Assembly (NCBI GenBank): GCA_964023275.1
Contig: OZ029915.1
Location: forward strand, 35,088,573 to 35,152,572
Source of the DNA: Norana najaformis
Taxonomy: Eukaryota > Annelida > Clitellata > Crassiclitellata > Hormogastridae
Direction of reading: 5' to 3'
DNA length: 64,000 nucleotides
The position numbers and the translations under genes are program-made. The notes beneath the pieces are model-generated. The model did no database searches, was not told the origin of the DNA, and worked only from the letters and a program-made list of their open reading frames with translations. Shown here one piece after another: positions 1-60,982 of the stretch. The first letter of the stretch is position 1, and each line of letters starts with the position of its first letter.

Positions 1-313
1 GTTTTCACATCGCCTTTAAGTTTTTCACATTAGGTTTTGCCAGATAAGTTCATAGTCGGATTTTGAGCTTATAGCATATTGTATTTCTTTTAACAACTTA
101 AAGTATAATGAATTTTAGATTTTCAAATTATTTCATATTACCAATTTACTGTTTTACTAACAAGTAGCACAGCTACATTTATTTCAGTAGGTCTATTAGT
201 GCAATTGAACAAAAATTTATAAACTTGAGTAATTAAAAATATTTATTTTTTGTTTTTGATCAATAGCTTCCTAACCTTATTTCTTAATTAATATTTTAAC
301 TTATTTTATGCAG

Positions 314-532
314 GTGCCCAAACCGTATATGTTGGAAATCAAATTGTTCTTGGTCAAGATGGATTGCAGTGCGTGTGGTTTGTGTCTACAACAACCTCTA
401 GTGAACATTTTGTGTCCGATTCTCCAAAATTGACGATCGATCAAGCCATGCTGGATAATGCAGGATTGTACAAATGCTATGTAAATGGCCAGCTTACACT
501 TAGCTGCGAAGTCGGTGTGGTCTACAGTTGGG
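314..532 (+). CDS. Gene A, exon: Ig-like domain 1
   Basis: Exon bounded by a tatgcag acceptor and a GG|gtaaat donor, both phase 1, as usual for single-exon Ig domains. The frame reads an Ig-like fold: first Cys in LQCVWF with the Trp two residues later, then LTIDQAMLDNAGLYKCYV, which carries the D-x-G-x-Y-x-C signature around the second Cys. At about 73 residues it is short for an Ig domain, so strands at one edge may be missing or lie in an upstream exon. No signal peptide is seen; the gene starts outside the window. Family membership follows from the Cys/Trp/DxGxYxC pattern; the ligand is unknown. Confidence 0.72.
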
Positions 533-677
533 GTAAATACTTTTTAAATAAATTTTTAATATGCTGTTTTATTTGACATATTAGCTTTTGTGTTAGTAAG
601 GATTAAAATTAGGTAAAAGACTTATTTGTATTAGGTGCTTTCTAAACAGATAAGTTTTCCTGATATTTGTCTTTCAG

Positions 678-1028
678 ATCTGGATGCTCACAACTTTTGC
701 AGTGCTGAACCGGACCAGAATTTTGTCTGCCCAACAAAGGCTCCGAGTGATGTTGCCCTTAACACTGGCCAGTCCATATATGGGATCTGCAAAGTGGCAG
801 GAATTCCTGTACCTTATGTTCAATGGATGTTTTGTCCCAATGTCTGTGACAATATGTATCCTTCAAATGTCACTTCATCAGACACATGCCAGCCAATTAA
901 CAGCAGCAACGATACTTCATCATCATTTTTCATTAAGTCAAATGTGAGGCATGATGACAATGGCCTCTACGTTTGCGTGGCAACATATCTTGATGCAGTT
1001 GCAACATTTTATAATGTCTGTGTCAGTG
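678..1028 (+). CDS. Gene A, exon: Ig-like domain 2
   Basis: Phase 1-1 exon of 117 codons, with acceptor ctttcag and donor G|gtaagc. It encodes an Ig-like domain: SIYGICKVAGIPVPYVQW has the first Cys and core Trp, and VRHDDNGLYVCVATY has the D-x-G-x-Y-x-C motif. An insert between them carries extra cysteines (CPNVC, DTC) that may form additional disulfides, plus N-glycosylation sequons NVT, NSS and NDT, which places it outside the cell. The Pro-rich P-x-P-x-x-x-W stretch resembles I-set domains. It is followed by the first membrane exon, with no stalk exon recognised between. Confidence 0.78.
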
Positions 1029-2595
1029 GTAAGCTACATTTTCATATATGTTGGTAAGCTACATTTTCATATATGAATGAAGCTTGTAGAAATGCTGTCA
1101 GCTTCTCTGTAGTTTAAATAGAAATGTTTCAAGCTGATCTCAGTTAATGTACTTTTAGCTTAGACTCTGAGCTCTTCTGTTTAAAGTTTTCTTATGTTAC
1201 TTATTCACCATTCACCTTTGGATTCTTCAGTTCTGTTCTAGTACAGTTCTGTCCTTGTACATAGTTACACTGAGCACAATTTCTGTTCATTTTATGTGTG
1301 CCGATACACTTCTTAAAACAAGAAGCTCAGAAAACAGTATATCTACTACATTAAAAATCTAATTCTTCGGTTTTACCTGATGTTTGTCCTGAAATTGTAC
1401 TCTGGTTCACATAAAAAAATGCAAACACTATTACAGGTGCAAACTTCAATTAGAAAATAAATTAAATTTTATAGTAATATCCGAAAATAAAATCTTGCAG
1501 CTGGCAGGAGAATGTGAGGTTGCAATTTTTTGCTTCCCGTTAAACAGCTCATCTATAACTATAAAATCCAAGGTAACTCTCATCTCACAAATCAAATGGT
1601 GATCAGTTGTTGCTCGCTCATTTTTATCTTTTTGTACTTGATCTTTATTGAAACCCTGAAATACACATAATATTCAGATCATTGGGTCTACATTTGTAAA
1701 CAGTAAAGTATAGCCTGACTTACCAAGTTGGATATTGGAAAATTTTAATGATTTGTTTATAATTTACTTTGGTGCACCAATATGGTGAAGTTTCTTTTCA
1801 GTTTTCTATGAATGGTCTTTGTTTTTGCTTTTGTTTTGATGTGCCGGGTAACCAGATTTATTTTAGTTCTGCTTACCAAAATATCATTTGCACAAATATA
1901 GCTTTTAGTTTAAATAGGTTTCAGCTGTATTCTTCCATGCACATGTTGATAGAAGGAAGAAATGAAGCTTGATACTTCAGTTTCTTCTTGGGTGACTCGG
2001 TGTTTCTTTGTTTTATTGAGTGCCTGTGAATAAACTGATTCCAGCGACTTAACGTTTTTGTGCATTGTGGTAAAGAGTCTTAACAGGTACTCAGTCGAAA
2101 CAAAATTTATAATTAGGAAGGGTCAGATTCAGTTCCAGGTCAAGATTCATGTCAGACAGCTATGGTGGATGGTATTTGGAATTGGAGCGACGAGAGAGAT
2201 AAGGGGAAGAAAAGGAATCAGAAGTAGGATTTGTGGAAGAGGAGTGTTCAGTTTTGAGTGAAGACCTGCTCAGAGATTGCAAGAGGTGAAGCATTGGTGA
2301 GTTCGTAGGATGAATACAGTTACTGATGTTTGTGCTGCATTCCAAAATGAAACAATTCTAGTCTAATCTAATGTGAAGGCTTTTCCTAGTGTATAGTTAT
2401 CATAATAAATAAAGCAACAGTCAATGGTTGCTTCAAAGTAGAACCAATAAGTGATCATAAACATGACGAGAGAGGCCAGAGGGAAAGGTAAGCAACCTGG
2501 AATACGTACATTTTCAACCTATATTTGAATTATATTGATAAAAATGTTTAGATATAAATTTATGAGGGTAACTCTGTCTGTCTGTGTTCTTTCAG
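1029..2595 (+). other. Intron of gene A with one repeat relic
   Basis: AT-rich intron between the second Ig-like exon and the first membrane exon. A splice-flanked open stretch at 1501-1572 is open only in phase 0, so it does not fit this phase-1 gene. The only other feature seen is the interspersed repeat at 2085-2262. Confidence 0.6.
2085..2262 (+). repeat. Interspersed repeat family R1, partial copy
   Basis: Shares the ordered blocks aaacaaaat, ttccaggtcaagat, acagctatggtggatggt, ttggaattggagcg and agagagataag with copies at 17456-17690 and 59395-59620. The 5' block found in the longer copies (atcgtaatcgtaa, then tacagcgccc) is missing here. Confidence 0.7.
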
Positions 2596-2739
2596 CTCCA
2601 CATACATGTTCTGGCACTTGGGTGAAGTGGTGGCATTGGTACCAAGCTGCGGTTGCAATAGTCACAGTAGACATTATAGCTGCAATATGTTTTCTTGTGA
2701 TGGTCATTGTCATCTGGATCGACAATGACACAAAAATCA
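2596..2739 (+). CDS. Gene A, exon: membrane segment 1
   Basis: Phase 1-1 exon (acceptor gttctttcag, donor A|gtaaga). After a short extracellular part with one Cys (APHTCSGTWVKWWHWY), a roughly 25-residue hydrophobic helix follows (AAVAIVTVDIIAAICFLVMV and on), ending IVIWIDNDTKI. The aromatic WWHW cluster just before the helix fits a membrane-interface position. It is the first of five hydrophobic segments in consecutive exons. Confidence 0.75.
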
Positions 2740-3198
2740 GTAAGAGCTTTAGATGTTAACTATGGGTGTTTACGATGTTCAGGTTGTTTTTTTCTTTGTG
2801 AAAATCTATTCAAACAATTTGTATGGTGCCATTGTCTGTGCTAATGAAAATGATGAATTATTTGTAATGTAATTGTATATATTCTGTGAGTTTCCGATGA
2901 TTGTGACCAGGCTTACTAGTCAAATATATGTAAAATATTTAACTACAGTATGTCTGTGAATAGAAATCTTAATGATATTTGAATAATCATAATCAGTAAT
3001 AGTAACATCATGAAGATTAGAAATCAATCAAAAGCCATTATCATCAAAATGTTATAATATAAAGCGTTACTGTCATAACTTTGTATTATCCACATTCCTT
3101 AAACATAACAGACTTAGGCATTTGCTTCTTATTGATACTTTGTTTCTTTAAAATATATAATGTTTGAATCCTGCAAACTATTTTCATTTTATTTTCAG

Positions 3199-3248
3199 CA
3201 TTTTGCAGTCGACTTTTGCTGATAGTTCTAAATCACTGTGTGTTGCTG
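3199..3248 (+). CDS. Gene A, exon: membrane segment 2, first half
   Basis: Short exon with acceptor ttattttcag and donor ctg|gtaagt; phase 1 start, phase 0 end. It encodes TFCSRLLLIVLNHCVLL. The helix continues in the next exon across a phase-0 intron, the only non-phase-1 junction before the last exons. The two exons form one symmetric phase 1-1 cassette. Confidence 0.62.
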
Positions 3249-3542
3249 GTAAGTTTCCATTTCCATTTAATATTAACCAGTCATCTGGAAATTTGTATCT
3301 GTTGAACTAAAACTGTAAGGTTAGATGAAGTCTTTTGCTAAGTGTTGATCATAATGGTAAGTTTGATTTATAAAACTTCATATAATTGCATTATTTTATA
3401 AATTAAAAAAATTACCTTCACACATCTTGCACAGCTTGCATAAAATATACATATTAACACAATCACTGAGAAAATTAATGCAATCATTGATGCAAACTGA
3501 CCTGCTGAAAACAATTCTTATAATTTTTTGTCAAATTTTCAG

Positions 3543-3597
3543 ATACTGGCAGCAATGATGATTATTGGTTGTGCCATTTGCCTAAACAGAGACTCAG
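3543..3597 (+). CDS. Gene A, exon: membrane segment 2, second half
   Basis: Acceptor aaattttcag, donor G|gtatgt; phase 0 start, phase 1 end. It encodes ILAAMMIIGCAICLNRDS and completes the helix begun at 3199. The hydrophilic end NRDS would form a short loop before the third segment. Confidence 0.62.
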
Positions 3598-4011
3598 GTA
3601 TGTTTTCTCTTACTACATTGAAATTGCTTCAAATTCATAAAGGTGCTATATTAGCTCAATTTTTAATTTTTTTCTGAAAAGACCTCATTTGATGAATATT
3701 AAATTTTCCTTATATAAGAATGGTAAATCATATATTTCAATTTGAAATATTTTGGTAGAATATAATGAAATTCTGGTTATAGCTTGCATAGATTTGCAGA
3801 ATGGAAAACTAAAACATAAATCCTAAATTAACTTATTTTACCTTTTTCTTTACATTGTATTTCGGTTTTTGTGTCAATCTATGCACAGTCCTTTGAGACA
3901 ATGTACACAAGCACTTGGCATAAGAAGTATGGTTGTGGAACAGAATAATCTGATTTGATATCATAAATATCACAGTTATGAAAGACACGATGAATGTCTT
4001 TTGATTTGCAG

Positions 4012-4116
4012 ATTCAGTGGCTGTCCAGTGGGAGACCGGAGTTATCGTTATGTTTGTTTTGTTGTTCTTTTTTGGCATTTTATCAGCCATTGTGACTGGT
4101 CTTTTCAAGTGTAAAG
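4012..4116 (+). CDS. Gene A, exon: membrane segment 3
   Basis: Phase 1-1 exon (acceptor gatttgcag, donor G|gtaaac). It encodes DSVAVQWETG, a hydrophobic stretch (VIVMFVLLFFFGILSAIVTG) and the basic end LFKCK. The acidic or neutral side before the helix and the Lys/Cys side after it follow the positive-inside rule for an outside-to-inside span. Confidence 0.72.
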
Positions 4117-5148
4117 GTAAACATCTCATTAAAATTTAATACTAAAATGCTTCATCTGATCCTTGGAAATGAGGCAGTGAGCTGTTTGCCCAATATACTT
4201 GCAGGGGTCACTGTTGGTGATAGAGGTCAGTCAGCTCATTGTTTAAAGACGTTCTTACCGGTATTTCCCAGGGTCTATCATGCTGGATGTGCCTCTGAGT
4301 AGTTTGTTCTGTAAGAAGCGCTATATAAGTTATCAAATACAATACAATAAAATGCTTGCGTAAAATAAAATAAGGATGATACTGTTGCCATTTAAGATGC
4401 TTTGCACTAGTTAAGTGCTTGATTACACAATATACATTAATGCAATCAGGCATTTATATAGCACCACTTTAAGAACTTCAGCACACACTTCTGTGAATGT
4501 TGTATTTTAATTTCTTGTCACATTTTTATATAAAATAATCTCTTTAACAGCTACATAATCAGTTTTGACCTGTGAATTATAATTTTTTTGGTGATAATTT
4601 TGTCTTTCTCTACTGCTAAGATAATTATTTATTTCTTGTCTGTATTGATTTCCAGACCTTCACTGTTCATCTGATTATCTCTTTGTGGTTGTGCCAAAGT
4701 TAGAACCGCTCTTCGTGGATGAGTTGTTTGAGTTGCTGGACATAACATTTGGAACTTTCTTCCTGCAGTTTTTCATTCTGCTCAGTCTCTCTTGTCACAT
4801 CAGTCTCAACTTAAAACTTACCTTTTTCCGTTGGCTTATCCCCAATAAGCTGCCTCTCTGTTTCAGGGACTGATTTTCTAGATACTGGCCTGACTGCAGT
4901 TTGGTTTTGGTGTGCCATCAGTTGATGCCTTGTGCATTAGACACTGGCGCTATAAAATTTGTAAATACAATACAGTTAAAAGCACTGTGAAATTTTGGTG
5001 AATAAATAATTTGGTGAATGAAAGATTGAGGTATAAATACATGTGAAAAACCACTGATTGATGTGGTCAAACTGTTGGATGAATGTCTAAGTTTCATGTT
5101 CACTGTTTATTAAGTAGTTTTCTTCATTTAATATTGCCACTGTTTTAG

Positions 5149-5250
5149 GAAAAGTGCATCTGATTGTTGTCATTGTGTGGGATGTTGTTACCATTCTGGT
5201 TGCATTTGCCACATTAATATGGACCTTGGTGAATATGAGCCACTGTAGAT
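5149..5250 (+). CDS. Gene A, exon: membrane segment 4
   Basis: Phase 1-1 exon (acceptor ctgttttag, donor T|gtgagc). It encodes GKVHLIVVIVWDVVTILVAF, then ATLIWTLVNMSHCR. A charged Asp lies inside the helix, and a possible N-glycosylation sequon (NMS) after it would suit an extracellular position. Confidence 0.7.
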
Positions 5251-5639
5251 GTGAGCTTTTCCACTAATTTTTTATACTTTGCTAATTTATTTTTATACTT
5301 CAACATTTTAGAAGGTTTACTGTTTCTAACGTCTTGCAGTTTGCTTGCCGGTAATCTTTAAATAATATAAAGTATCGGAAAATGCAATATACAGATATCC
5401 AGATACATAAACAAGCATGCATTGTTTAAACTTGTGTCTGCATTAAGTCAAAATTTTGAAGTAATTTATTAAAAATTGTCTGCTAATATTATTACTACTA
5501 AAACACCATATTTCTTATTCATCAGTTAGCACTATGTTTGCTTAAGTCTCATTTGAAGTACAAGCCATTTCTATTTAATTTCTGCAAATGCACACTTGTC
5601 TTCTGTTCCTGGTAAGCTTCGGTCAGGTGTTTGTTGCAG

Positions 5640-5768
5640 CTACCCGGACAAGCGGGGACAGTGACAAATGGTCATGGGAGATTTTCCTCATTGCTTTGGC
5701 AATCGCTGTCTTGGTGTTTGTCCTGTTGACTCTTATTTGGTACATTCGACGAAAGAAACATTGCAAAT
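5640..5768 (+). CDS. Gene A, exon: membrane segment 5
   Basis: Phase 1-1 exon (acceptor gtttgttgcag, donor AAAT|gtaaga). The hydrophilic start STRTSGDSDKWSWE is followed by a long helix (IFLIALAIAVLVFVLLTLIW) and the basic stop-transfer YIRRKKHCK. The last base is a T. Joined to tail exons starting GC or GT it makes a Cys codon, extending the motif to KKHCKC. Joined directly to the exon starting AA at 8686 it would make TAA, a stop. This is the most typical single-pass anchor of the five. Confidence 0.75.
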
Positions 5769-6146
5769 GTAAGACTCTCTGGCTTTTAAAAGCATAAATT
5801 CTGATTTTGCTCATACATATAATAAGAAAAAAACCGAATTTATAGTTCAAATATTTCTTTAATGATTCATGTTATCTAAAAATTGTTTTATCTACAGATG
5901 TTTGGTCATTAAGCATTATAGTCAACTTCAGTATTCCAGATATTTGTATTTTCAGTCAAAGTTCATTCTACATTTTTCAGTGTATATCTCAAAGCAAATT
6001 GATTTAGTGCTATATTAATTTTGCACTGTGATTCACCATGTCCTGAATCCTCTTTATTTACCATATAATAACAAGATCCTGTTGTTGTAAAAATATAAAC
6101 TGGTTGAAAAAGTGTAAACCAGTAGAAACTTTTGGGGTTTCTGTAG

Positions 6147-6302
6147 GCTGTGGTGGAACTTCCAGATGGGATTGTCATTTCTCCTCGAGAAATTGTTGTT
6201 CCTGCTGCAAAAACAGCAACAGAGAAAGAATCACAGTGGAGTCTGCATCTGAGATAAAAGATGAAAGACAAAAATACCATACCAGACACGGGGAACGAAT
6301 GG
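6147..6302 (+). CDS. Gene A, cytoplasmic-tail exon T1
   Basis: Acceptor gggtttctgtag; phase 1 start. It reads GCGGTSRWDCHF, then the cluster SRNCCSCCKNSNRERI and a charged stretch (SEIKDERQKYHTRHGERM). Juxtamembrane Cys clusters of this kind are commonly palmitoylated; that is inference. The donor G|gtatct keeps phase 1. Without splicing the frame stops at 6329-6331, so this may instead be an alternative last exon. Confidence 0.55.
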
Positions 6303-6339
6303 GTATCTATCACCTACTTAACATGACTTAACGTAACAA

Positions 6340-6565
6340 AATTTTAAGTGGTTCAGAAAACATGTGATCTGTCTTAGCACCACTGCAAATTAACCCGGAA
6401 GGATTACCAACCAATCCTTCCAGCTTCTTCTTACAAGCCGTGATAGTGTCCACTGAGACAGTATTATCATCCAAGCTATTGCACAGGTCTACAATTCTTG
6501 CACTGAAGAATTTCTGTCCTAGTGTATCTTCTGCACCTTTTGTTAAACCTTATGAGTATCAACAA
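6340..6565 (-). mobile_element. CR1-like LINE, 3' end relic in an intron
   Basis: Read on the minus strand, the stretch gives, with frame breaks, the usual end of a CR1-type reverse-transcriptase ORF: ARIVDLCNSLDDNTVSVDT, then a Lys-rich helix and a short 3' tail. The same arrangement is found at 49255-50350. It is a 5'-truncated insertion in the intron after tail exon T1. Confidence 0.65.
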
Positions 6566-7445
6566 ATGAGTCTGTGAAAAAGTCATATTTTATTTATTTT
6601 AGCAGTCTAAACTTAGTTCAGTACTGGGTAAATGTCTTAAGGGTGCTGTATAAATACCAGGTACATACATACATACAACTTCAGTGCATCTGGTTCAACA
6701 AAGTCTGCCTTTTCTTTGGGGTTAGCAGATGAGTACTGGTGGATGTTAGAATGTGTAAGAAGGTGTCCTGGTGTGTAACAACATGTGACTCAGTCACATG
6801 GACACGTTTGAAGGAATGCATTTTAGCATTCCTATCCTAACTTGATTGAATGACTGCTTGTGGATATGGATACCAGGTGGTAGGCTAATCTATACAGAAT
6901 GATCCAGTAAATGTGGACTCCGTGAACAACGATCATCTTATTGTGTGCTTTCTGCTAGAATGTGAAGGTGTCCATGAGTTGCTGAGCACATGTGATGCCA
7001 GTTGTGAAAAGAAGAAATTTGCATGCATAATCTGATGAGGTGCTCTGGGCCAAATGGTGAAGGCAGTTGTTAACCAGCAACCCCATCCTGTACTTGATTC
7101 CATAGCTGATAGGGAGCCCATTGAAGTTCATCATGTTGAGTTTCTGTGACATGATTGCATTTATGCTTATGCATGATTAGTCATGCAGGGGCTTTGAGAA
7201 CAGGCTAGGAACAGGTTATTATATATGTTAGAGTTTTTTTTAAAGTTGACTTTTAATACTTTACTTTGCTTGCTTTGTTGCTGCTTTTCAGTGGACTAGT
7301 TACTCTGTTATTGATTTTGAGAAAACAAATCAAATTTTCAGGTTAACTCTGTCAACCTTAGTCTTATGGTTTACCATTCAGCTTGACATGAGTGCTTCGT
7401 CCAGTTCTTCTCATATCATGTGATTTGGTTTGCTATATTTTGAAG

Positions 7446-7601
7446 GTTGTCTTTGTTGCTTCTGCGGATTTTGCAAACGAAAAGTTGGAGATGATCCGGA
7501 GCTGGACTGTAAAACAAATAAGCAGTCAGAGCACAACAAAACTTATGGAGAAAGCAGCAGAACATCTCCCAATAGAAAACAGACTAAACCTTATAAGTCG
7601 G
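7446..7601 (+). CDS. Gene A, cytoplasmic-tail exon T2
   Basis: Acceptor atattttgaag, phase 1. It encodes GCLCCFCGFCKRK, then hydrophilic VGDDPELDCKTNKQ and more Ser/Lys-rich sequence ending KPYKS. Five Cys in ten residues next to the membrane would suit multiple acylation or metal binding. The donor G|gttagc is weak; without splicing the frame stops at 7604-7606 (SG stop), so T2 may also be a terminal exon. Confidence 0.5.
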
Positions 7602-7990
7602 GTTAGCATCTGATGATTTAAAAGAAGCTGAATATAAACTGAATTGCATAAAAGAATTGCATAAAACCACATCATTATGTCTTTTATCATTTTATGTTGA
7701 AATATCTATACTGTGATCATGGTGTTTCCTCTTATTTCAGGATTATAAAAAAAATGTAAAAAAGTTACAGTAGTATCTCTTCATTACATGAGGCTTTCCC
7801 TTGAAATCATTAAGTGAATTCCAGTGTAACAATGTTACCATTTGTCCAACAAAATTCTGTGGAATATTCTTATGTTATACATGTACTTCATATTTCACAT
7901 CAGCATGCATGTTAACATATATAAGGATGCGCATATATGAAAATCTTAAAACTCAGCTTTTGTGTGCATTGTATTTTTCTGTTGGTCAAG

Positions 7991-8170
7991 GTTGCTGTGA
8001 CAAGAGAGGTTATCGTGATCTACCCTGGGTCAGTTGTGTTCCTGTTTGTTCCTGTTGCAAATGTAAAGCCATGGATGATGAGGAACAAATTTCTAAAGCA
8101 GACAGTGAGGAAGAAGATAGAAGCCAAAATCCTGCTCGTGGGCACCCACACAACCAAAAGAAATTGCAAA
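7991..8170 (+). CDS. Gene A, tail exon T3a (first copy)
   Basis: Phase 1-1, 180 bp, acceptor gttggtcaag, donor A|gtaaaa. It encodes GCCDKRGYRDLPWVSC, then VPVCSCCKCKAMDDEEQISK, then an acidic/polar stretch with SEEEDRSQN and a His/Lys-rich end. The order (Cys cluster, basic residues, DDEE, charged tail) is shared with T4 and T5, so these exons look like one diversified family. DSEEED is a possible casein-kinase-2 site by pattern. Confidence 0.65.
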
Positions 8171-8353
8171 GTAAAAAAACAGTTTTTTCTTTTAAAATGA
8201 AGCTAATTTATTGCATCACCAAGTTAGAAATGTATAGTCATTGCAGTTTGGCTGAAGTGAAAACATGATGACAGTAATACAACACGAGGGCAACCCTTTC
8301 TTAACTAGTGACTTGACTCGACAACAAGCTGTCTCTTTCACTTTTTGTACCAG

Positions 8354-8394
8354 GTTTTGAATTGGAGAAAAACAGACCAGCCAGCACATTATAA
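8354..8394 (+). CDS. Gene A, alternative terminal exon (first copy)
   Basis: Acceptor ctttttgtaccag. Entered in phase 1 from T3a, it reads SFELEKNRPASTL and then stop TAA at 8392-8394. An AATAAA lies 139 bases beyond the stop. Splicing T3a to this exon would give a receptor with a short distinct C-terminus. The alternative is that this is intron and T3a joins T4a. A longer phase-0 reading is open to TGA near 8505 but does not match the phase of T3a. Confidence 0.4.
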
Positions 8395-8532
8395 ATCAGG
8401 GGTATGCCACTGGAATGATATCAGAGGCTTTCACAGCAAGAGTAGAGCCTATCTGGCTGAAATTGACATGAAAGCCTCTGCTGAAACTGTAGGACTTAGT
8501 TATTGAATATCTGAATGCATGAATTCATGTAG

Positions 8533-8538
8533 AATAAA
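8533..8538 (+). terminator. Candidate poly(A) signal, first copy
   Basis: AATAAA 139 bases after the stop of the alternative terminal exon, kept in the second copy at 9918-9923. Confidence 0.4.
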
Positions 8539-8685
8539 TCCATCTAGAGCTTTAGTCTAGTTATTGTTAATTAACATACTATTACAACCATTTTGATGAA
8601 TTCATGTAGTTCATGCAGTTCGATATGCAATTACTTAGCTGTGCTTGTGATGGCACACAGCTTCACACTTGTCTGTATATTGCAG

Positions 8686-8880
8686 AAACTTCACAAAGTC
8701 ACTATGACAGTGATAATAATCGTGATTATTATCCCCCCCTTGTCTGCTGTGCGCCAAGTATGTGCAGCAAACGTAAAGCTAGAGATGATCAGGAACGAAT
8801 TTCCAAGTTGGATGATCAGGATGAGGAAGATGGTCACAAGAACTCTGATAAACAGTCAAATAAAAAGAAAAAATTGAAAG
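8686..8880 (+). CDS. Gene A, tail exon T4a (first copy)
   Basis: Phase 1-1, 195 bp, acceptor tgtatattgcag, donor G|gtacat. It encodes ETSQSHYDSDNNRDYYPPLV, then CCAPSMCSKRKARDDQERIS, then KLDDQDEEDGHKN and a Lys-rich end. The DDxE...ISKxD...EED arrangement matches T3. Two Tyr-rich patches precede the Cys cluster. Because it starts AA, it cannot follow the membrane-5 exon directly (T+AA is a stop) but can follow any exon ending in G or A. Confidence 0.62.
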
Positions 8881-9377
8881 GTACATTGTTGAATTAAAGC
8901 ATACAAATTTATGCTATGCAAATTAGGATCAAGAATATTTCATTTGAAAACTTCATCTATCTGCATGATTTAAAAGAATTAATTTGAATATTTGTTGAAA
9001 TATTAAACTGAATATACACTGAATTGCATCAAAGAATTGCATAAAACCACAGCATTATGTCTTTTATCATTTTATGTTGAAATATCTATACTGCGATCAC
9101 GGTGTTTTCCTCTTTTTTCAGGATTATGACAAAATGTAAAAAGTTACAGTAGTATCTCTTCATTACATGAGGCTTTCCCATGAAATCATTAAGTGAATTC
9201 CAGTGTAACAAGGTTACCATTTGGCCAACAAAATTCTGTGGAATATTCTTGTTATTTTTGTACTTCATATTTACATCAGCATGCATGTTAACATATATAA
9301 GGATGCGCATATATGAAAATCTTAAAACTCAGCTTTGCCTAAACTTTAGTGTGCGTTGTATTTTTCTATTGGTCAAG

Positions 9378-9557
9378 GTTGCTGTGACAAGAGAGGCTAT
9401 CGTGATCTACCCTGGGTCAGTTGTGTTCCTGTTTGTTCCTGTTGCAAATGTAAAGCCACGGATGATGAGGAACAAAATTCTAAAGCAGACAGTGAGGAAG
9501 AAGATAGAAGCCAAAATCCTGCTCGTGGGCACCCACACAACCAAAAGAAATTGCAAA
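9378..9557 (+). CDS. Gene A, tail exon T3b (second copy)
   Basis: Duplicate of T3a with the same 180-bp length, phase and splice signals. Two residue changes are evident: the Met before DDEE is Thr, and Ile in EEQIS is Asn. Keeping the reading frame and both splice sites indicates that the duplicate is still functional or very young. Confidence 0.62.
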
Positions 9558-9738
9558 GTAAAAAAACAGTTTTTTCTTTTATAATGAAGCTAATTTATTG
9601 CATCACCAAGATAGAAATGTAGTCAGTGCAGTTTGGCTGAAGTGAAAAAATGGTGACAGTAATACTGCATGAGGGCAACCCTTTCTTAACTAGTGACTTG
9701 ACTCAACAACAAACTGTCGCTTTTGCTTTTTGTACCAG

Positions 9739-9779
9739 GTTTTGAATTGGAGAAAAACAGACCAACCAACACATTATAA
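9739..9779 (+). CDS. Gene A, alternative terminal exon (second copy)
   Basis: Copy of 8354-8394 with the same acceptor. It reads SFELEKNRPTNTL, then TAA at 9777-9779. AATAAA follows at 9918-9923. Confidence 0.38.
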
Positions 9780-9917
9780 ATCAGGGGTATGCCACTGGAA
9801 TGATATCAGAGGCTTTCGCAGCAAGAGTAGAGCCTATCTGGCTGAAATTGACATGAAAGCCTCTGCTGAAACTGTAGGACTTGGTTATTGAATATCTGAA
9901 TGCATGAATTCATGTAG

Positions 9918-9923
9918 AATAAA
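9918..9923 (+). terminator. Candidate poly(A) signal, second copy
   Basis: AATAAA after the second alternative terminal exon, in the same relative place as in copy one. Confidence 0.38.
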
Positions 9924-10075
9924 TCCATCTAGAGCTTTAGTCTAGTTATTGTTAATTAACAAATACTATAAAAACAACCATTTTGATGAATTCATATAGT
10001 TCGTGTAGTTCAATATGCAATTGCTTAGCTGTGCTTGTGATGGCACACAGCTTCACACTTGTCTGTATATTGCAG

Positions 10076-10270
10076 AAACTTCACAAAGTCACTATGACAG
10101 TGATAATAATCGTGATTTTTATCCCCCCCTTGTCTGCTGTGCGCCAAGTATGTGCAGCAAACGTAAAGCTAGAGATGATCAGGAACGAATTTCCAAGTTG
10201 GATGATCAGGATGAGGAAGATGGTCACAAGAACTCTGATAAACAGTCAAATAAAAAGAAAAAATTGAAAG
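10076..10270 (+). CDS. Gene A, tail exon T4b (second copy)
   Basis: Duplicate of T4a with the same 195-bp length and splice sites. The one clear protein change is Tyr to Phe in NNRDYYPP, which removes one possible phosphorylation site. Confidence 0.6.
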
Positions 10271-10354
10271 GTACATTGTTGAATTAAAGCATACAAATTT
10301 TATGCTATGCAAATTAGGATTAAGAATATTTCCTTTGAAAACTTCATCTATCTG

Positions 10355-11546
10355 CTGTCTTCTGCCTTATCCTTCTAAGTCATTAAATCATTCCTCCAAC
10401 CCTAGAAATGTCATTGCTTTCTACATTCTGAAAACTTTAGTTATGCTTGCTTCTCCTAATTGCCCAAGTATAGTTTTTAGACTTTGAGGTAATGGTACTC
10501 ACGACTTTCATAGTCATTCTCCATCACTATCATTCTCTGACATAATTTCTTTTGTCTCCAAAATTCTTTTCAATCAAAATATCCGGTCATTTTTCTTAGC
10601 TGTTTTCTATATACTCAATGTGCCGTAATAATTTTGTTTGTGCCCGGTTAAGTTGTATTCGCTATATATCAGGCATGGACTGATTAAAATTAGTGCATAA
10701 CGTTATAACATGCATTAAATGTATTGTGTAATTCATCAGTGTAGTGTATGATTATACTAATTCTATAATTCAAGATCATAATGAGGGAGATGGAGATCAA
10801 AGTGCTGTAAGAGCTAAAATATTGTTATGATTACGCTGTGAAGATTTCAACTCTAGGTGGTTAAAAATGAATCATTCTTGTTAATTTCTGATTGCCATGG
10901 GAGACATTTATGTCCCATAAATATAAACAACCAGAAACGTCCCTGGAATTAGCATACTGGGAGAATATGTTATGTTCATTGTCAATGCATGTTGCTGCCA
11001 ACATCCTTAAATAACATAATGTGATGTGCGGAAGACAGACTTGATTTGTGTTATTTGAAACCATTAAAGTGTATTTGAATGCCGAATGAAATCATCGAGT
11101 AACTGTCAGTAATAATTTCTGTGCACAATCAGTTGATGCCTTGTGCATTACATACCAGCGCTAAAGAATTTGCTAATTAATAATAATCTGACACCAATTA
11201 AACCACCCAGTGGAGCCCTCAGCAAAAACAATCAATACATAATAAACTTAGGTAAAAGTGAAATCATATCTAGCTGTGAATTAAACACATCAGCTTCTCT
11301 GCAGCTGTACTTTGGGAAACAGAAACAGAATAGTAACCTGGTTTCGTAGCAAGCTGTCTCAGTCTCAGCAGCTTTACGAAGTGACTACGGGAATTAAATG
11401 TGAAACCATGCTATTATTACTAAACACGCTGCTATGAAGTTCCTGAACTTTCTTTATTTAACATTACTAGTTAGCTTCTTCACTGTATGACCGTTCTGCA
11501 TTGTATTTTATTGGTGATTTTAATTTATATGCTTACTTAGATACAG
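10355..11546 (+). other. Intron of gene A
   Basis: AT-rich sequence without a supported exon. At about 11130-11175 it has a short block (cagttgatgccttgtgcatt, then a cagcgcta core) that also occurs at 4918-4955 in another intron of this gene. Confidence 0.5.
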
Positions 11547-11937
11547 GTGACAACTGTTGTCAAAAATTCTGCTGCCTTCCTCATTGTTCTCGTTGCAAAT
11601 GCTGTGATGGAAAAAGGAAAAAGTCGGAGAGGAAAGATGATGCTAAAAAAAGTGGCAACAAAAAAGATGATAAACCAGAAACAAAAAATGAAAAGAACAA
11701 TCAGAAAGAAGAAAAACAGGCAAAAAATAAAAACAACGAAACAGTGAGGCCTGAGAAGGAGATGCAAGTTGGAAAAGAACATGGAAAAGAGGATAAACCA
11801 GAAACTAAAGCAGAAAATGGTCACGACAATAATGATGACACAGATGGAAAAGGAAAGAGTTCAAGTGCCGCTAACAATAAGAAAAACAGTGAAGATGAGA
11901 ATCAACCATCAACCAAAAATGAAGATAAGCTTCTAAG
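11547..11937 (+). CDS. Gene A, tail exon T5
   Basis: Acceptor acttagatacag (phase 1), donor AAG|gtaaag (phase 2). It opens with GDNCCQKFCCLPHCSRCKCC, then DGKRKKSERKDDAKK and about 100 residues of very Lys/Glu/Asn-rich, low-complexity sequence, including a repeated DDKPETK / EDKPETK motif. The Cys cluster matches the other tail exons; the rest is probably disordered. The frame runs into TAA if not spliced (AGG TAA at 11936-11941). Confidence 0.75.
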
Positions 11938-12516
11938 GTAAAGTGTTTTCTGTATTGTAAAATCAATTATTTCAAATGTTTTCACTTGATTGATTTATTT
12001 ATTTTTACTTATTTGTATGTATCTGTATTAGTATTTGAATTTATGTCTTGTGCTGGATCATGGAAGCCCCTCAGAAGATAATGTGCTCCAGACTGGCTCC
12101 TTCCCTTTACATCTTTCCAACTGTTGCCATTCTTACTACTGCCATGTGCAGTGGTAAAATTTAGAAATTGTTCTGAACGTTTTATGTTTTGCTGCATGTC
12201 ATGGGCCTCCCAATTAACCAACATCTCCGCTTTGACATTCAATCCAAATGAAACAATTCTTTATACTTGGACGCTCACATAGAAATGTTCTCATGCATGC
12301 CTTCTGCTTATCAGGTGGATTTTGCCTTAACATCGTTTAAGCTTGTAAAACTGTATTGAGCAAGTTGGTTGCTGAGACTAGCTTTCATTGATGCCGAAGA
12401 AGCAAGGATCTTTGGTTATATTTTGCTATGTGTCTTTGAATCAAAAACATATTACCTTGACATTTAAACACATTCGTGGCAGAATCTTAATTGCTGGTTG
12501 TCTGTTATTTTGTTAG

Positions 12517-12826
12517 AGGGAAATTAGATAAAGAACAACTGCTACCTACAATGTTTGGTGACATAGAACTTCAGGAGAGTTCTCAGCGACAAGTGAAACG
12601 CTTTCTACCCCCAAAAAGAGTGCGAGCAGATTCATTTGCAGGTGACGACCGTTCTTTAACACCTGCAACCCCAGGAAGAGATACAAACCAGGATAAATTG
12701 GCAGGTAGCCCAAAAGAAAGCCCAAAGAAAAGCCAGAAACCTAACAAAACCAAAGATAAAGAGAGCAAGGAAGGGAGGAAGAAAGATAATGAAAAGGAGG
12801 AACTTGGAGCATCTACTGACCTATAG
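12517..12826 (+). CDS. Gene A, last exon
   Basis: Acceptor tctgttattttgttag. The split codon AG|A joins in phase 2 to T5 and restores Arg. It encodes GKLDKEQLLPTMFGDIELQE, a basic segment (VKRFLPPKRVRADSF), then Ser/Thr-Pro sites (RSLTPATPGRD, GSPKESPKK) and a charged end ESKEGRKKDNEKEELGASTD-L with stop TAG. SP/TP sites beside basic residues suggest a regulated cytoplasmic tail (inference). No catalytic domain is seen. Confidence 0.72.
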
Positions 12827-13440
12827 CTGACTAAGAATCAGACAGCTGTTAGAAACAGAAGAATTAGAAAAATTATAAAGTTATTATTTTTCCTAGTTGT
12901 CATGTTGCATATTACAATTTTGATACTTTATATGTACCGGTAAAGTACTAGACTAAATGTGGTTCATTTATTTCCATTAGCTTTCAAATAATATTACTGG
13001 TAAACATATAACCTCATCTAAATATCACTGCCCTCTGTACCAACACTCTTGTGTAGATTCTATGTGTTGAATGTGTAGTTATTCAGTTTCAGTTTTGCTT
13101 TCTATCTGAGAAATATCAAATTCACCCAAATTAAAAAACATGGAAATGAAATATGAATTGTACTTTTTGGCCATAAACTTATGTTTTCTAATATATATGA
13201 TATAAATGGTACATATATATGATGCATTTGATTTAGTTTAACTAACTTATATTTTAGGAGTTAAACTTTTATTAAAATTACACCAACTTCCTTTTATAGT
13301 TAAATATTAGTAATATTATTAAATAATAATTATAATACTAACTAATAATATTGTGATACTATTATTACTATTATATTATTATATAACTAAAGTGTTGTAC
13401 AAAAAATGAATAAATCCCAAAGATAACTGAACTGTAGGCA
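12827..13440 (+). other. 3' UTR of gene A
   Basis: AT-rich sequence after the stop with runs of ATTATTA and no open frame of note; ends near the AATAAA at 13409-13414. Confidence 0.5.
13409..13414 (+). terminator. Candidate distal poly(A) signal of gene A
   Basis: AATAAA about 580 bases beyond the stop at 12826, in AT-rich sequence. Confidence 0.45.
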
Positions 13441-13689
13441 AATGTTGTTTTGTGTTGGCTGTTGTCTTAATGGCTTTTACCATGTATAAGAGACTGTTTG
13501 CAACTTCTATCAATTTATTTATTTAACTTTCTATATTACGTCATTTAAATTAAGAAAATTAATATATACTTTAATAATATTACTATAGTTTACTTTTGCC
13601 CTGTTATAATATTAAATTGCTCGATTTATCTGCTGGAATAATCTCCCAAAGAATTACATAAAGGGTCTGATCCATCCTAGCAGATCATC

Positions 13690-15292: not shown

Positions 15293-16001
15293 TTAAACTG
15301 ATAATTCCTCTGCGTATAGAGCGTTATCCACTAAAATAACTTCTCCATCTGCATAGTCAGTTTCATACCATCCTTCAGCGTGATTTTGATTTCCGGCAGC
15401 AGTTTGAAATTTCTGACCCAAAACTTGCTCCACCATTTCCACTGCAGTGCAGTTATAATAGCTTCCTTCGGGTTTATATCTCAGTGGAGGTGGAGACGAA
15501 TAGTTAATCACTGCATCCCTGTCTTTGACATTTTCTTTCAGAGAATCCTCATCGGCAGTCTCTCCATTATAAGCCAAGGCTTTATGCTTTAGCATAGTAG
15601 GGTGAAGAATTTGATCGCTGTTGTTCCCCACTATACCGAAAGAAGCATTTTCAGCATTGTTCTTTATGACAACATCAGTCACGTTTTCGCTGCTGCCACT
15701 GTTCGCATTCATTGGTTCTGGGGAACTTCTGATGGTTTCGTAATTAATAACATCTCCCATCAGCTCGTATACAGAATTATAATTGTCCCTATTTTTATTG
15801 GTCATTGCGTCCCTCTTTTCATTCGTGCTTGACGCTTTCTTCGTATGAAACGCACTGGGTGCTGATTGGTCGTATGATATCCTTTTGCCGTTGACGATGT
15901 TGTTGGAATTGTAAACTATCACAGTTTCTTGATTGATTGTTTGTTGAAGGTGAGCTGCAGGTCTGTCAGGTTGTCCTCGGTTGCCTTTGTTTAGTCGCCT
16001 C
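15293..16001 (-). CDS. Gene B, last exon: cytoplasmic tail with Tyr motifs
   Basis: On the minus strand the acceptor ttgattttgtag joins in phase 2 to the transmembrane exon (AA|G, Lys) and the frame runs 235 codons to TAA. It starts KRRLNKGNRGQPDRP, a basic juxtamembrane stretch. It then carries several tyrosines in phosphorylation-like settings: VIVYNSN, SVYELMGDVINYETI, EGSYYNCTAVEM and, next to the C-terminus, DNALYAEELSV. Acidic/hydrophobic Tyr motifs of this sort can recruit SH2 or PTB proteins; YELM and YETI do not strictly match the ITAM consensus. No kinase domain is present. Composition is polar and probably disordered between motifs. Confidence 0.75.
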
Positions 16002-16439
16002 CTACAAAATCAATTTCCAATTGTTCCCAAATAAAATCTTCAGTGGTTCCAAAATAAAATTAGAAGCGTGTATACTGGTGTGTGTAATAACAATTAAAGC
16101 CTAAAATAAATGTCCAGCAGGGATAGCACACTTTTCTCATGTAGCTATGTATAGGCCTAGTCTATACGTTGCTGTGGACCTGTAGGCCTATATTAAGTAG
16201 CCTATGGCATCGCTAATTAAGTAGGCCTATATTTGGAAAGACTCGCTGAGTTTATATATTTGAATCGGAATCTGTTGCGACAAAATAAAGTATTTTATGT
16301 TGCAACTGAACAGAATTTGTACTCCTTTGCTAATTAGGCTATAAGTAGGCTATTTGTGGAACCCTAATGCTGCGCTAAAGCAATTTCTGACAATGTCTTG
16401 CCGTTTTTACTTTATAAAGATCTCAATATTACCTCTGGC

Positions 16440-16780: not shown

Positions 16781-16862
16781 TTGTGTCTTAAAAGCACTAT
16801 TGTTAGCGATATTAGGAGGATGGCCACGATAACTGCTCCTACGACGATTCCAGTGATGGCAC
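16781..16862 (-). CDS. Gene B, exon: transmembrane helix
   Basis: Minus-strand exon with acceptor gtctgattatag (phase 1) and donor AA|gtatgt (phase 2). It encodes GAITGIVVGAVIVAILLISL and TIVLLRHK: a single hydrophobic helix with small-xxx-small packing (GIVVGAV) and a basic stop-transfer. Both phases fit the neighbouring exons. Confidence 0.72.
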
Positions 16863-17455
16863 CTATAATCAGACAAGCATGAGTTAGATTTGCAATGTTC
16901 AGAGTTGTTAAGTCTCCATTGAAAAGCCATTCTTTAAAATATGGACTTTGCCTGATCATTTAAATTAGGCAACTGTTATCTATATATACCCTATATAGGC
17001 CTACAAGGTATAATTAAATCTAAATAATTTAAATTGAGTAAACTGAATTTTAATTGTTTGACAGAACTACGAGTTTTGACACAGGATAGGCCTATATGTT
17101 CCAACCTCATGCCAAACATTTTCAACTTTTCCACAGAATAAATCAATATTTCGGCTTTGACTCAGCCGCTTTGTAAACTTGATAATTAACTATTTTTAAA
17201 GAACACTGTCATTTAAATTGCTTCATAGGCCCTACAGCTGTAGACGAACTGATGTATGATAAAGAGAAAATATATACAATAAGAAAACAAGAATGAACGC
17301 GTCTCAACTGTGCTAATTATATCCAATAGAGTTCTACTGCACTGTCTACTATAAATAGACCACGAACGACAACAGCATTTAGAAGCGCAATAATAGAGCA
17401 GTGTGTGAAATTGAATGGATGGCATAACAAGCTATAGTATGAACATACAATGGTG

Positions 17456-18249: not shown

Positions 18250-19075
18250 TTAGTCCTTTCTGTGCAGGGCTGCACATCGGGAAACGCAGCTACTCCACTC
18301 ATCTCTGTCGACCGCCAGTCTTTCTGCCTCATCTCACGACATCTCGAAACACCCAAGGTCGTCGTCTCTTATGGTCTCTGGTCAGTTCTTCTTCCCCTCC
18401 TCCGTTTCCCTTCAGCAATCCAGTACATTGCTTGACTGGCTCGCCTATCTTTATCCTTATGAATTACATATCCCATCCATTTCAGTCTTCTGTTTCTGAT
18501 GGTATTTTCTATATACTCTTTCCCCGTCCTTCCTTTTATAGTTTTATCTGATATCTTATCATGCCACGAAATGTGCAGAATTCTTCTCAGCCATCTGTGA
18601 TCTGCTGTCTCCAGTCTTTTCTTGTCTGCCACCGTCATTGGCCAAGTTTCCGATCCATATAGTAGTGTGCTTAATACTATGGCCTCATATAGACGAAGTC
18701 TCCCAAAAGCAGCATTTGTCTTCCCTATGCGTACCTTATCTCCCTGCCACAGCTGCTGTCTGCTGTTATTAAGCTACCGAGTTAGCAGAAATCATCCACG
18801 ACATCAACCTCTTTGTCACTAACCATGATGTTATCCATTCCATTCCATTTTCCTATAATCATGATTATGGTCTTTTCGGGATTGATAGTGAGTCCCACCT
18901 TCACTGCCTCCTCCTGTGCTTTAGATGTTAGTTCTTTCATGCCTTTCCAAGTGCTGTCCAACAGGGCGATATCATCCGCAAAGTCCAAGTCCTTTATTTT
19001 ATCGCCGTTCATCCATTTCAGTCCAGTGTTAGGCCTACTGCCTCCCGTCATTCTCGACATCGTCTAATCCACAAC
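18250..19075 (-). mobile_element. RTE/CR1-type LINE, C-terminal part of reverse transcriptase
   Basis: The minus strand carries the reverse-transcriptase catalytic motif in DLDFADDIALLDSTW (the FADD box), then GLTINPEKT, and after a frame break LETADHRWLRRILHISWHDK, RRLKWMGYVIHKDKDR, RRRGRRTD, and finally LAVDRDEWSSCVSRC to a TAA at 18250-18252. These are the palm, thumb and C-terminal motifs of RTE-like non-LTR elements. A short taagtaagt run follows the stop, as in RTE 3' ends. The copy is 5'-truncated and frame-shifted, and lies in an intron of gene B. Confidence 0.85.
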
Positions 19076-19976: not shown

Positions 19977-20198
19977 TTCATGTACCCTCAACGTTTTTGT
20001 GCTTCTACCTTGTGAAAAGATTTTAAATGAAGCGATATTTCTTTGGTTGCTCAGGCGGATAACTGCATTTGCAGAAACACAGAAACAGTTGTTCGACCGT
20101 TAGGTCGCTGTTTAGCCTGCGTGACGTCTAAGAATTCTGAAACTGAGCAAGCATCCAGATGCACACGTGTACATTACTACTTGAGAATAATTGCAAAC

Positions 20199-20567
20199 CT
20201 CGACTGATGCATGAATAAATGATTTTGATAAAGTTTCCATCCAACTGCTGGCTTGTACCGCTACTGCACCGTAAACCGGATTCGTTGTAGAGAAGAATCC
20301 GTTGAGCTATACTGCACTCGTTGTTTCCTGTGCAGTACGTAGACGGTCCTGTAGTCGTATTTGTACACGCATCGCTGGTTACTGGACATTCGAAGCCATT
20401 GTTAATTGCTTGGTACAGTGGACTGAAACCAATGACGGCTGACTCGACATACACAACTTCAGCTGAGTTGTTACAGCTGAAGATAAACTTCGATGCGAAT
20501 TGAATCGGATTATCTCGACATCCGTGGAAGACTTTGCCTGCATTCAGCGTGCTGACTATGTTTACAG
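20199..20567 (-). CDS. Gene B, exon: SUEL/galactose-lectin-like ectodomain
   Basis: Minus-strand exon of 369 bp, phase 1-1. It holds the end of one Cys-rich domain (AVNIVSTLNAGKVFHGC, then FASKFIFSC) and a second complete one. The second starts VVYVESAVIGFSPL, has TYCTGNNECSIAQRILLY and RCSSGTSQQLDGNFIKIIYS-C. The order C-x-G-x-x-x-C-(S)-(I/V) followed by a final hydrophobic strand ending Y-x-C is the pattern of SUEL-type (rhamnose/galactose-binding) lectin domains. The canonical YGR motif near the start is not visible, so sugar binding is uncertain. Upstream exons and the signal peptide were not found. Confidence 0.6.
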
Positions 20568-20845
20568 CTGTACAGTTAATATTACAGGTAATGTTATAAG
20601 AAAATTTACAACATGCACCTCGTGGATTCTATCAGCATAAACGGTCGACACCTTTACTAATATACCCATTCGAAGAATTACACTGTAATCTTATGTAGTT
20701 GGTTTGTACGAGTTTGCAACAAAAATACGATTAAAATTGTATCTAGGCCTGCGCTCTAGATGCCTATGTTCGCGCAATTTCCAAAAGCTGCTTAGGCCTT
20801 TCTGTAGTAGCAGTAATGTTTCTGTAGTAGCATTGTATGCATGTA

Positions 20846-27115: not shown

Positions 27116-27303
27116 CTAGAGCAACGAATCATATCACACACTATTATTAATTTTACTGTTAACGTTACTATTGCTATTATTATTATAGTTGTTGTTGTAA
27201 TTGTTATCGTTATGAATGCTATTATTATTTTTTTAAATTAGATAAAATTGTAATTGATTATATATTTTATGCTTATTATTAAATTTATTATGTACAGGCT
27301 ATT

Positions 27304-27304
27304 C

Positions 27305-27402
<98 letters not shown>
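27304..27402 (+). repeat. (ATT)n microsatellite
   Basis: About 99 bp of uninterrupted att repeats. Confidence 0.97.
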
Positions 27403-27403
<1 letters not shown>

Positions 27404-27914
27404 ATTACGGATGTATGTAGCGCTCACAGTCACACAGAAATGTGACTTTAATGGATAACAATCCAAACTTATAAAAATTACTTTCTAACATAACACAAAC
27501 TCGTTTAATCCGCCTAACTATTCGACTAAATTATAGATATTATCAGGTATTACACGAATGTATGCATTAATACTGTCATTAACAAAACGCATATGTTTAA
27601 TACAGACCGACGCATAATGTAAATATTTCATGCAACATATACTCCTCTAACTACAGGTGAAACTCAGAATATTTGTCTTTATGACACTCTGTGTAAACAG
27701 ACAAATATTTGTTTCCTTGTGGGTCATCTTGGGTCGACCATTGAGAGTTTTACAACCTGTCAAAAGTTGCGATGTTAATGCAAGAGCACCAATCCACTGC
27801 ATTCGTTGTCCAGCTGTTGATGCTGGTGTGGTCTGGGGCAAAACTGGGGCTTCCCAACACCGAAGCCAGTAACTTCTGAAGAAGTTCTCACTTTCGATGC
27901 ACGACAGCCTTGTT

Positions 27915-33740: not shown

Positions 33741-34543
33741 TCTGCTGCCTATAAAACACGATAAGTAGTCCGCCGAAGTTAATGTTGTCCCGCACGAACA
33801 GAAGAGCGGTCTGTAATCAGAAGAGGAAGATGAAAAGTTTCCATTAAACAGCTGTACATACGTCAGTTTTATGTGTGTTTGCTATGCATATTGTTTATGT
33901 ATACCAGACTAGACGGTTATTACCAGCTTTAGAACTTAGGGGGTGGCCCAGTCATGTCATGTTTGCAAAATATTAGCACACTGCACGCCATTCTGCCAAG
34001 CTTATAGGCGCCTGCGTCTCTTGCGCAGGCTGGGTATTTCTAATTTTGATCTGGGATCTTTTGAAATTATATGGTCTATGGATAATCATAATAATAGTAA
34101 TCCATAATCCAAGAACTTCTATAGCCCCACTGTAATAATGCTAAATAATCGATCTAATCCAAATTGTGAGCAGAATGTAGCTGCAAAGCAAAGCCGGTGT
34201 GCATACCAATTTCCAGGGTGAGTTCAGTCAAAAGCCATGAGAGAAATCCGATAAGACACAGAAACAACCATAGGAGGAAATGAGACCAGAGCATATGCTA
34301 CACAAACCAAGACAGACATAGGAATGTGGCGCCTCAACATTTGAATATCACGAATGCGACAGAGGGTTGTCCTGCATATCGAGTCAATGTGTTCACTGAA
34401 GGATACATTAGAATCAAATACACCTGAATTACGAGCCTAACATGTAGCTGCGATGTATGACAAAATTCCCGAGATGCGCAGAATTCAGAGATTTAAATTT
34501 TTGTTCAACAGCCGCGTTGTACAGAAAAGCACAGCAACTCAGC

Positions 34544-35320
34544 TTTGGATGGATTTAGGAGCAGTCTCTGCTTTGGATGGATTTAGGAGCAGTCTCTGCT
34601 TTGGATGGATTTAGGAGCAGTCTCTGCTTTGGATGGATTTAGGAGCAGTCTCTGCTTTGGATGGATTTAGGAGCAGTCTCTGCTTTGGATGGATTTAGGA
34701 GCAGTCTCTGCTTTGGATGGATTTAGGAGCAGTCTCTGCTTTGGATGGATTTAGGAGCAGTCTCTGCTTTGGATGGATTTAGGAGCAGTCTCTGCTTTGG
34801 ATGGATTGAGGAGCAGTCTCTGCTTTGGATGGATTTAGGAGCAGTCTCTGCTTTGGATGGATTTAGGAGCAGTCTCTGCTTTGGATGGATTTAGGAGCAG
34901 TCTCTGCTTTGGATGGATTTAGGAGCAGTCTCTGCTTTGGATGGATTTAGGAGCAGTCTCTGCTTTGGATGGATTGAGGAGCAGTCTCTGCTTTGGATGG
35001 ATTTAGGAGCAGTCTCCGCTTTGGATGGATTTAGGAGCAGTCTCTGCTTTGGATGGATTTAGGAGCAGTCTCTGCTTTGGATGGATTTAGGAGCAGTCTC
35101 TGCTTTGGATGGATTTAGGAGCAGTCTCTGCTTTGGATGGATTTAGGAGCAGTCTCTGCTTTGGATGGATTTAGGAGCAGTCTCTGCTTTGGATGGATTT
35201 AGGAGCAGTCTCTGCTTTGGATGGATTTAGGAGCAGTCTCTGCTTTGGATGGATTTAGGAGCAGTCTCTGCTTTGGATGGATTTAGGAGCAGTCTCTGCT
35301 TTGGATGGATTTAGGAGCAG
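34544..35320 (+). repeat. 28-bp minisatellite, about 28 units
   Basis: Near-perfect tandem copies of a unit made of tttggatggatttaggag followed by cagtctctgc. Rare variants are gattgagg in two units (near 34806 and 34974, six units apart) and ctccgc in one unit near 35010. The array ends sharply at gagcag|actaat. Confidence 0.98.
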
Positions 35321-60972: not shown

Positions 60973-60979
60973 GGTTGTG

Positions 60980-60982
60980 TAT

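Follow-up and report, generated by a model that had tools for sequence, protein, structure and literature searches.

A 64,000-nucleotide stretch of the genome of the annelid Norana najaformis (GenBank assembly GCA_964023275.1, contig OZ029915.1, positions 35,088,573 to 35,152,572 of the forward strand; hereafter the window) carries at 314-12826, on the plus strand, what is very probably a real split gene of striking layout, for which no relative was found. Its exons encode two immunoglobulin (Ig)-like units, a stalk, five hydrophobic spans and a row of cysteine-rich tails (Table 1), and the 5′ start of the gene falls left of the window. An earlier reading of the same DNA (the original prediction) had named two Ig-like exons, five hydrophobic segments and a set of tail exon starts, all of which agree with the acceptor sites and the joined reading frame. 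The dinucleotide AG precedes 15 of 15 exon starts, namely those of Table 1 other than Ig2, as well as the second Ig exon where we placed it. With GT donors placed, fourteen exons (eight for the Ig and span parts, followed by tail exons T3-T8) form a single open frame that ends at the stop at 12826, and an AATAAA signal lies at 13409, 3′ of T8. T1 and T2 were left out of this frame; each of them, joined alone after span 5, is in frame to its own stop.

Six exons encode the five spans, span 2 being divided between two of them. Junction phases are all 1, save phase 0 within span 2 and phase 2 at T7-T8. The expectation that almost all exons would be of phase 1-1 held for Ig1, Ig2, the units of transmembrane segments (TM) 1, 3, 4 and 5, the TM2a+TM2b pair and T3-T6, and failed for T7 (1-2) and for T8, the terminal exon, where the frame ends; T1 and T2 reach in-frame stops. 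Several donors are weak, matching 5 or 6 of nine consensus bases, accepted examples being those of TM1 (5) and Ig1 (6).

The first Ig-like unit is short, with an F-strand-like D-N-A-G-L-Y-K-C and no clear B-strand cysteine, and the Pfam models Ig_4, V-set and Izumo-Ig matched its residues 32-58 only under their curated cut-offs. The second matched Ig_3 (PF13927) with 42.3 bits (cut-off 30) and I-set (PF07679) with 37.9 bits (cut-off 23.7), and an Ig domain above the curated cut-off places the predicted protein in the Ig superfamily. This unit carries extra cysteines and three N-glycosylation sequons; its exon alone gave a predicted structure with a mean predicted local distance difference test score (pLDDT) of 37. 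The visible ectodomain holds 12 cysteines and three sequons, and further Ig units may lie left of the window.

Table 1 Exons of the candidate receptor gene and the tandem duplication among its tail exons
Feature	Position	Strand	Phase	Remarks
Ig1 exon	314-532	+	1-1	open frame and splice sites
Ig2 exon	678-1028	+	1-1	Pfam Ig_3 / I-set
Span 1 exon	2596-2739	+	1-1	Cys/Trp-rich stalk, then TM1 with Asp in the span
Span 2, first half	3199-3248	+	1-0	
Span 2, second half	3543-3597	+	0-1	also beginning of outer loop 1
Span 3 exon	4012-4116	+	1-1	KCK(G) at its end, predicted inside
Span 4 exon	5149-5250	+	1-1	Asp in the span; beginning of outer loop 2 with its sole Cys
Span 5 exon	5640-5768	+	1-1	ends RRKKHCK
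T1	6147-6331	+		Cys-rich; in-frame TAA; phase-1 GT after 6302; ~60 residues
T2	7446-7606	+		CLCCFCGFCKRK..DD; in-frame TAG; phase-1 GT after 7601; ~53 residues
T3	7991-8170	+	1-1	
T4	8686-8880	+	1-1	read-through adds GTLLN and a stop; ATTAAA at 8893
T5	9378-9557	+	1-1	near-copy of T3 (duplication alignment)
T6	10076-10270	+	1-1	near-copy of T4 (duplication alignment); read-through GTLLN and a stop; ATTAAA at 10283
T7	11547-11937	+	1-2	Cys cluster, then long K/E/D/N-rich segment
T8	12517-12826	+		last exon with stop (joined frame); KRFLPPKRVR and four S/T-P sites
Tandem duplication	7625-10355	+		units 7625-8964 and 9005-10355; identity 94.7%

Hydrophobic spans and their predicted topology

Over 19 residues, the Kyte-Doolittle maxima of the five spans lie between 2.7 and 3.4. 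Lysine and arginine (K/R) are distributed unequally around them, with 13 residues on the predicted inside (two in inner loop 1, three in inner loop 2 and eight in the first 25 residues of the T7 tail) against five on the predicted outside (one in the last 25 residues of the stalk, one in outer loop 1 and three in outer loop 2). These counts fit five consecutive spans with the N-terminus predicted outside and the C-terminus inside, and they agree with the charge claims of the original prediction, which had put KCKGK and RRKKHCK inside and the loops after spans 2 and 4 outside; KCKGK and RRKK indeed fall on the predicted inside. Polar residues within the spans, with Asp at mid-span in spans 1 and 4 and Asn and His in span 2, hint at a functional bundle beyond mere anchoring. 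Trp-Glu closes both outer loops (exons 4012-4116 and 5640-5768), standing directly ahead of spans 3 and 5 or separated from the span by one residue.

The clustering of span-bearing exons was compared with chance using a rule that required a phase 1-1 exon with a set exon length, a pyrimidine count, five of nine donor bases and a 19-residue hydropathy of 2.6. In 2401-5900 four real exons satisfied this rule, the thresholds of which were chosen once the exons were known and outside which the split span 2 falls; 500 dinucleotide shuffles averaged 0.016 such exons, 8 of them giving one and 492 none. Scanning the whole window yielded two more plus-strand matches, at 27298-27441 and 60952-61095, each overlapping simple-repeat sequence; the minus strand had none. 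A stricter scan with seven of nine donor bases retained four of the ten exons listed as phase 1-1, missing most of them because several donors match just 5 or 6 of nine consensus bases, and added two overlapping candidates, one at 4018-4116 and one at 12519-12641, within T8. An extra span exon at about 4656-4873 was considered and rejected by eye: the stretch is open and hydrophobic but shows no good phase-1 donor, and it resembles a repeat-like stretch near 13.9 kb; it was absent from the matches of the span-exon scan and had no match at E 1e-10 in the search that revealed the tail duplication.

The possibility that the span exons are mutual copies was also rejected, as segment-wise shuffles left only TM4-TM5 standing out (20 of 2000 as good); plain shuffles had favoured TM1-TM5 and TM3-TM5 too. 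The exons of spans 3 and 5 end in Lys-Cys-Lys and His-Cys-Lys, respectively, yet show no significant similarity (777 of 2000 segment shuffles scored as high). These comparisons bear on a different arrangement, in which the protein is a single-span receptor whose membrane exons are alternatives to each other, each transcript using one of them or an odd subset, for example acidic or neutral segments for different partners. Such an arrangement would agree with the phases of the span exons, each of which (or, for span 2, the 1-1 pair) can be skipped in frame, and with the Asp in two spans, since partner-binding single-span receptors carry Asp in the span. Nevertheless it is unlikely: the loops show the K/R distribution expected of five consecutive spans, span 2 is split and needs both of its half-exons, and the spans are dissimilar beyond composition save possibly for TM4-TM5, unlike the usual arrays of alternative exons.

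Tail exons and their duplication

The eight tail exons fall into five types (T1, T2, T3/5, T4/6 and T7-T8), and sequence comparison indicates that they arose by duplication. The most recent event is visible directly, T5-T6 being a tandem copy of T3-T4 with a unit of about 1.36 kb. Between the two units the exons carry 4 differences over 375 aligned sites and no insertions or deletions; the remainder has 49 over 958 and 25 gap columns (Fisher P 0.0003). The low divergence of the exons fits constraint, which is poorly measured here, and gene conversion may be another cause. An older kinship among T2, T3, T4 and T7 is suggested by alignment scores, in a comparison that used the first 63 residues of T7, omitted T5 and T6 as copies and did not include T8: for T3-T4 the score was 87 and the shuffle mean 30.3 (0 of 1000 as good), and shuffles were as good in 0 of 1000 for T2-T4 and for T4-T7, in 1 of 1000 for T3-T7 and in 10 of 1000 for T2-T3, the last being weak. 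By eye, the tails share a pattern in which a cysteine cluster is followed by basic residues and then by DD and charged sequence, and most of them open with a cysteine directly after the KHCK end of span 5.

The tails differ in how they could end. The phase-1 GT donors of T1 (5 of 9 consensus bases) and T2 (6 of 9) are no worse than some of the accepted donors, and each exon may therefore be either a last exon or a cassette. For T4 and T6, read-through together with the ATTAAA that follows would allow use as composite last exons; the hexamers AATAAA and ATTAAA are frequent locally, with 21 between 5769 and 14000. The T7-T8 tail has over 230 residues. Taken together, the joined frame, the shuffle tests and the duplication support well the order given in the original prediction, of an Ig part, five spans and a row of cysteine-rich tail exons.

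We also considered whether the locus comprises two adjacent genes, the Ig-span part being separate from part of the tails, or a decaying gene in which T1, T2 and T5/T6 are dead copies. T1 and T2 do stop in frame, with the modest donors given above and no near poly(A) signal, and T5/T6 are recent copies. These features are outweighed by the fourteen exons that remain in phase from 314 to 12826, by the retention of frame and splice sites in T5 and T6 at a divergence below that of the surrounding sequence, and by the cysteine with which most tails begin right after span 5, so that we give either variant little credence.

Other features of the window

Beyond the gene, the palindrome TAGGCCTA occurs 29 times in the window, where 0.81 would be expected from base composition; all sites lie between 14167 and 61578, and it is absent from 1-13500, where a uniform spread would place 6; 29 of 30 AGGCCTA and 29 of 37 TAGGCCT belong to it. 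On the minus strand, 15296-16009, 16789-16863 and 20131-20628 may belong to a neighbouring surface receptor, the pieces comprising a hydrophobic segment (GAITGIVVGAVIVAILLISLTIVLL), a 238-residue open reading frame (ORF) with 13 tyrosines and a 166-residue ORF. The cysteine spacing of the last recalls SUEL-type lectin domains; no Pfam match was obtained for it. Remains of a reverse-transcriptase element lie at 18372-19063 (minus strand), with an RVT_1 match on 18785-19063 at E 1.7e-4, below the cut-off. Two tandem repeats were found: a 51-base array at 44494-46288, the 17-residue translation of which (LLLYFPLAKLNLKAFYR) lies inside a 461-codon ORF that is probably an artefact of the repeat and not a gene, and a 28-base repeat at 34538-35320 with 28 copies and 99% matches. 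A further 269-residue ORF at 57728-58534 (minus strand) contains several CxxC-type cysteine pairs and had no Pfam match above the cut-off.

Relatives, interpretation and comparison with known receptors

Searches for relatives covered 5.8 billion proteins, a collection that includes nr, UniRef and the NCBI animal proteins, as seen from the result of a CD47 query, by a method that requires shared 5-residue words and that remote relatives can escape. Against solved structures, the core protein gave 59 matches, of which 58 fell within the Ig part, NCAM1 being the best at E 5.1e-05, and the remaining one, 4x5m_A, was a weak match in the spans (E 0.11); the spans alone gave four, the best again 4x5m_A (E 0.06), and CD47 was not among them. 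One pattern match in IMG/VR had no relative by tblastn, and Rfam and tRNA scans were empty. Among the literature matches listed, as judged by titles and the starts of abstracts, no invertebrate CD47 or other five-span Ig receptor was recognised, and those listed on intron phases yielded nothing about CD47.

The original prediction had compared the gene with vertebrate CD47, which is also called integrin-associated protein and acts in humans as a "don't eat me" protein. The layout stood, with an Ig part, five spans and several tail exons, whereas no link in sequence was found by Pfam, BLASTP, profile or span alignment. The CD47 models PF04549 (transmembrane) and PF08204 (V-set) gave no match at E up to 10, in a search where the HMMER filters drop most matches above about 0.1, while human CD47 as positive control scored 1.1e-52 and 3.5e-41, respectively. 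BLASTP against CD47 reached a best E of 2.6. An hhalign comparison with an alignment of 26 mammal CD47s, picked from the best 120 of 409 matches and forming a shallow profile (effective sequence number, Neff, 1.8), aligned 9 columns with probabilities of 0.5% and 0.1%, and when the span region was aligned with macaque CD47, represented by 175 residues counted from its linker, segment shuffles did as well or better in 810 of 1000 cases. As the principal explanation, homology to CD47 was rejected on these four kinds of test, and we describe the gene as built like CD47 without assigning it to CD47.

The features of CD47 itself allow a closer comparison. In the structural report on CD47 (PMC8410850), the protein is described as the sole five-span receptor of the immune system; a C15-C245 disulfide ties its Ig domain to the loop joining spans 4 and 5, an SWF linker precedes helix 1, and helix 3 has GLG at its top. 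The authors' own searches found no protein resembling the CD47 spans in sequence or structure. Human CD47 has 13 exons, and its tails, of 4 to 34 residues, result from skipping of exons 8-13 (PMC10902115). Passages on SIRP and CD47 in cancer (PMC9652883) call the origins of SIRPs unknown and do not address invertebrate CD47. The gene described here has in common with CD47 the extracellular Ig part, the five spans, a C-terminus predicted inside and several tail exons, and it further shares one cysteine in the loop joining spans 4 and 5, at the place of C245, a tryptophan-rich stalk and a glycine at the start of span 3 (WETGVIVM). These likenesses, together with the exon skipping by which human CD47 forms its tails, would suit a highly diverged non-vertebrate CD47. 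True homology is nonetheless very unlikely, as all sequence tests were negative and several features differ: the single V-set domain is replaced by two or more Ig-like units, of which the second is I-set-like and carries extra cysteines; the linker reads SAPHTCSGTWVKWWHWYQ and lacks SWF; GLG is absent; spans 1 and 4 contain acidic residues; and the tail exons are duplicated and encode longer tails, of about 60 and 53 residues for T1 and T2 and over 230 for T7-T8.

We consider it fairly probable that the locus is a single gene, truncated 5′ by the window boundary, for an orphan five-span Ig receptor that is laid out like CD47 and has alternatively spliced, probably lipid-anchored tails. Several points weigh against this reading. 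Neither the 385-residue core (candidates of about 212-674 residues) nor the full model, of which residues 1-480 were scored (candidates of about 477-1517 residues), had a relative at E up to 10 in the protein collection, so that no cross-species conservation supports the gene model. Outer loop 2 is the weakest point of the topology, with three K/R and three D/E, its K/R count equalling that of inner loop 2. Each span unit is phase-symmetric, and skipping an odd number would move the tail outside; variation is therefore expected mainly in the tails. Among the tails, T1 was not convincingly similar to those tested (49 to 388 of 1000 shuffles as good in four pairs, T3 being best with 49), nor was T2 to T7 (257 of 1000), and the tail shuffles preserve composition only, in sequences of low complexity. 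No AATAAA or ATTAAA occurs in 5769-8532, and thus none close downstream of T1 or T2. Of the four exon substitutions that separate the T3-T4 and T5-T6 copies, three alter the amino acid, and the case for constraint rests on few changes. Finally, the putative S-acylation is read from cysteine content only.

If the five-span receptor is as described, with all five spans in one transcript, its ectodomain of at least two Ig units and a cysteine/tryptophan-rich stalk would probably bind a ligand carried by another cell or by the matrix, and the bundle, with its polar residues in spans 1, 2 and 4, would probably pass a signal or assemble with partners. The exon phases suggest that splicing selects the tail: either T1 or T2, each serving as a short end or else as a cassette, or T7-T8 preceded by members of T3-T6 combined in frame. 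Such a protein would most likely be a recognition receptor in which the head and the span bundle stay constant and the tail varies. Cysteine clusters beside basic residues may be S-acylated, holding the start of the tail at the membrane, and the charged, probably disordered segment that follows would then serve different partners. The charged segments, and in T8 PPKRVR with four Ser/Thr-Pro sites, suggest partner and kinase sites.

A possible, still tentative, account of origin is that the gene represents an independent family of Ig receptors with five spans, which arrived at the CD47 layout by convergence and in which repeated tandem duplication of a cysteine-rich tail exon equipped one recognition head with many membrane-anchored signalling tails. 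If true, it would be a second five-span Ig receptor, unrelated in sequence, and would indicate that the layout can arise more than once; comparison with CD47 could then separate the effects of the layout itself from the particulars of CD47, and the duplicated tail array would put splicing diversity on the signalling side of the receptor. Cysteine string protein and SNAP-25 likewise have dense cysteine clusters adjoining basic residues where they face the membrane, and their cysteine-rich stretches there are S-acylated; unlike in those proteins, the cluster here recurs across several tail exons of one receptor gene. With the Dscam-type Ig receptors of arthropods the gene would share isoform diversity from duplicated exon arrays within a single Ig-receptor gene. 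In Dscam it is mostly the Ig exons that vary and there is a single span, whereas here the array lies in the tail, behind five spans; a convergent family of this kind would thus be the mirror image of Dscam, varying inside where Dscam varies outside.

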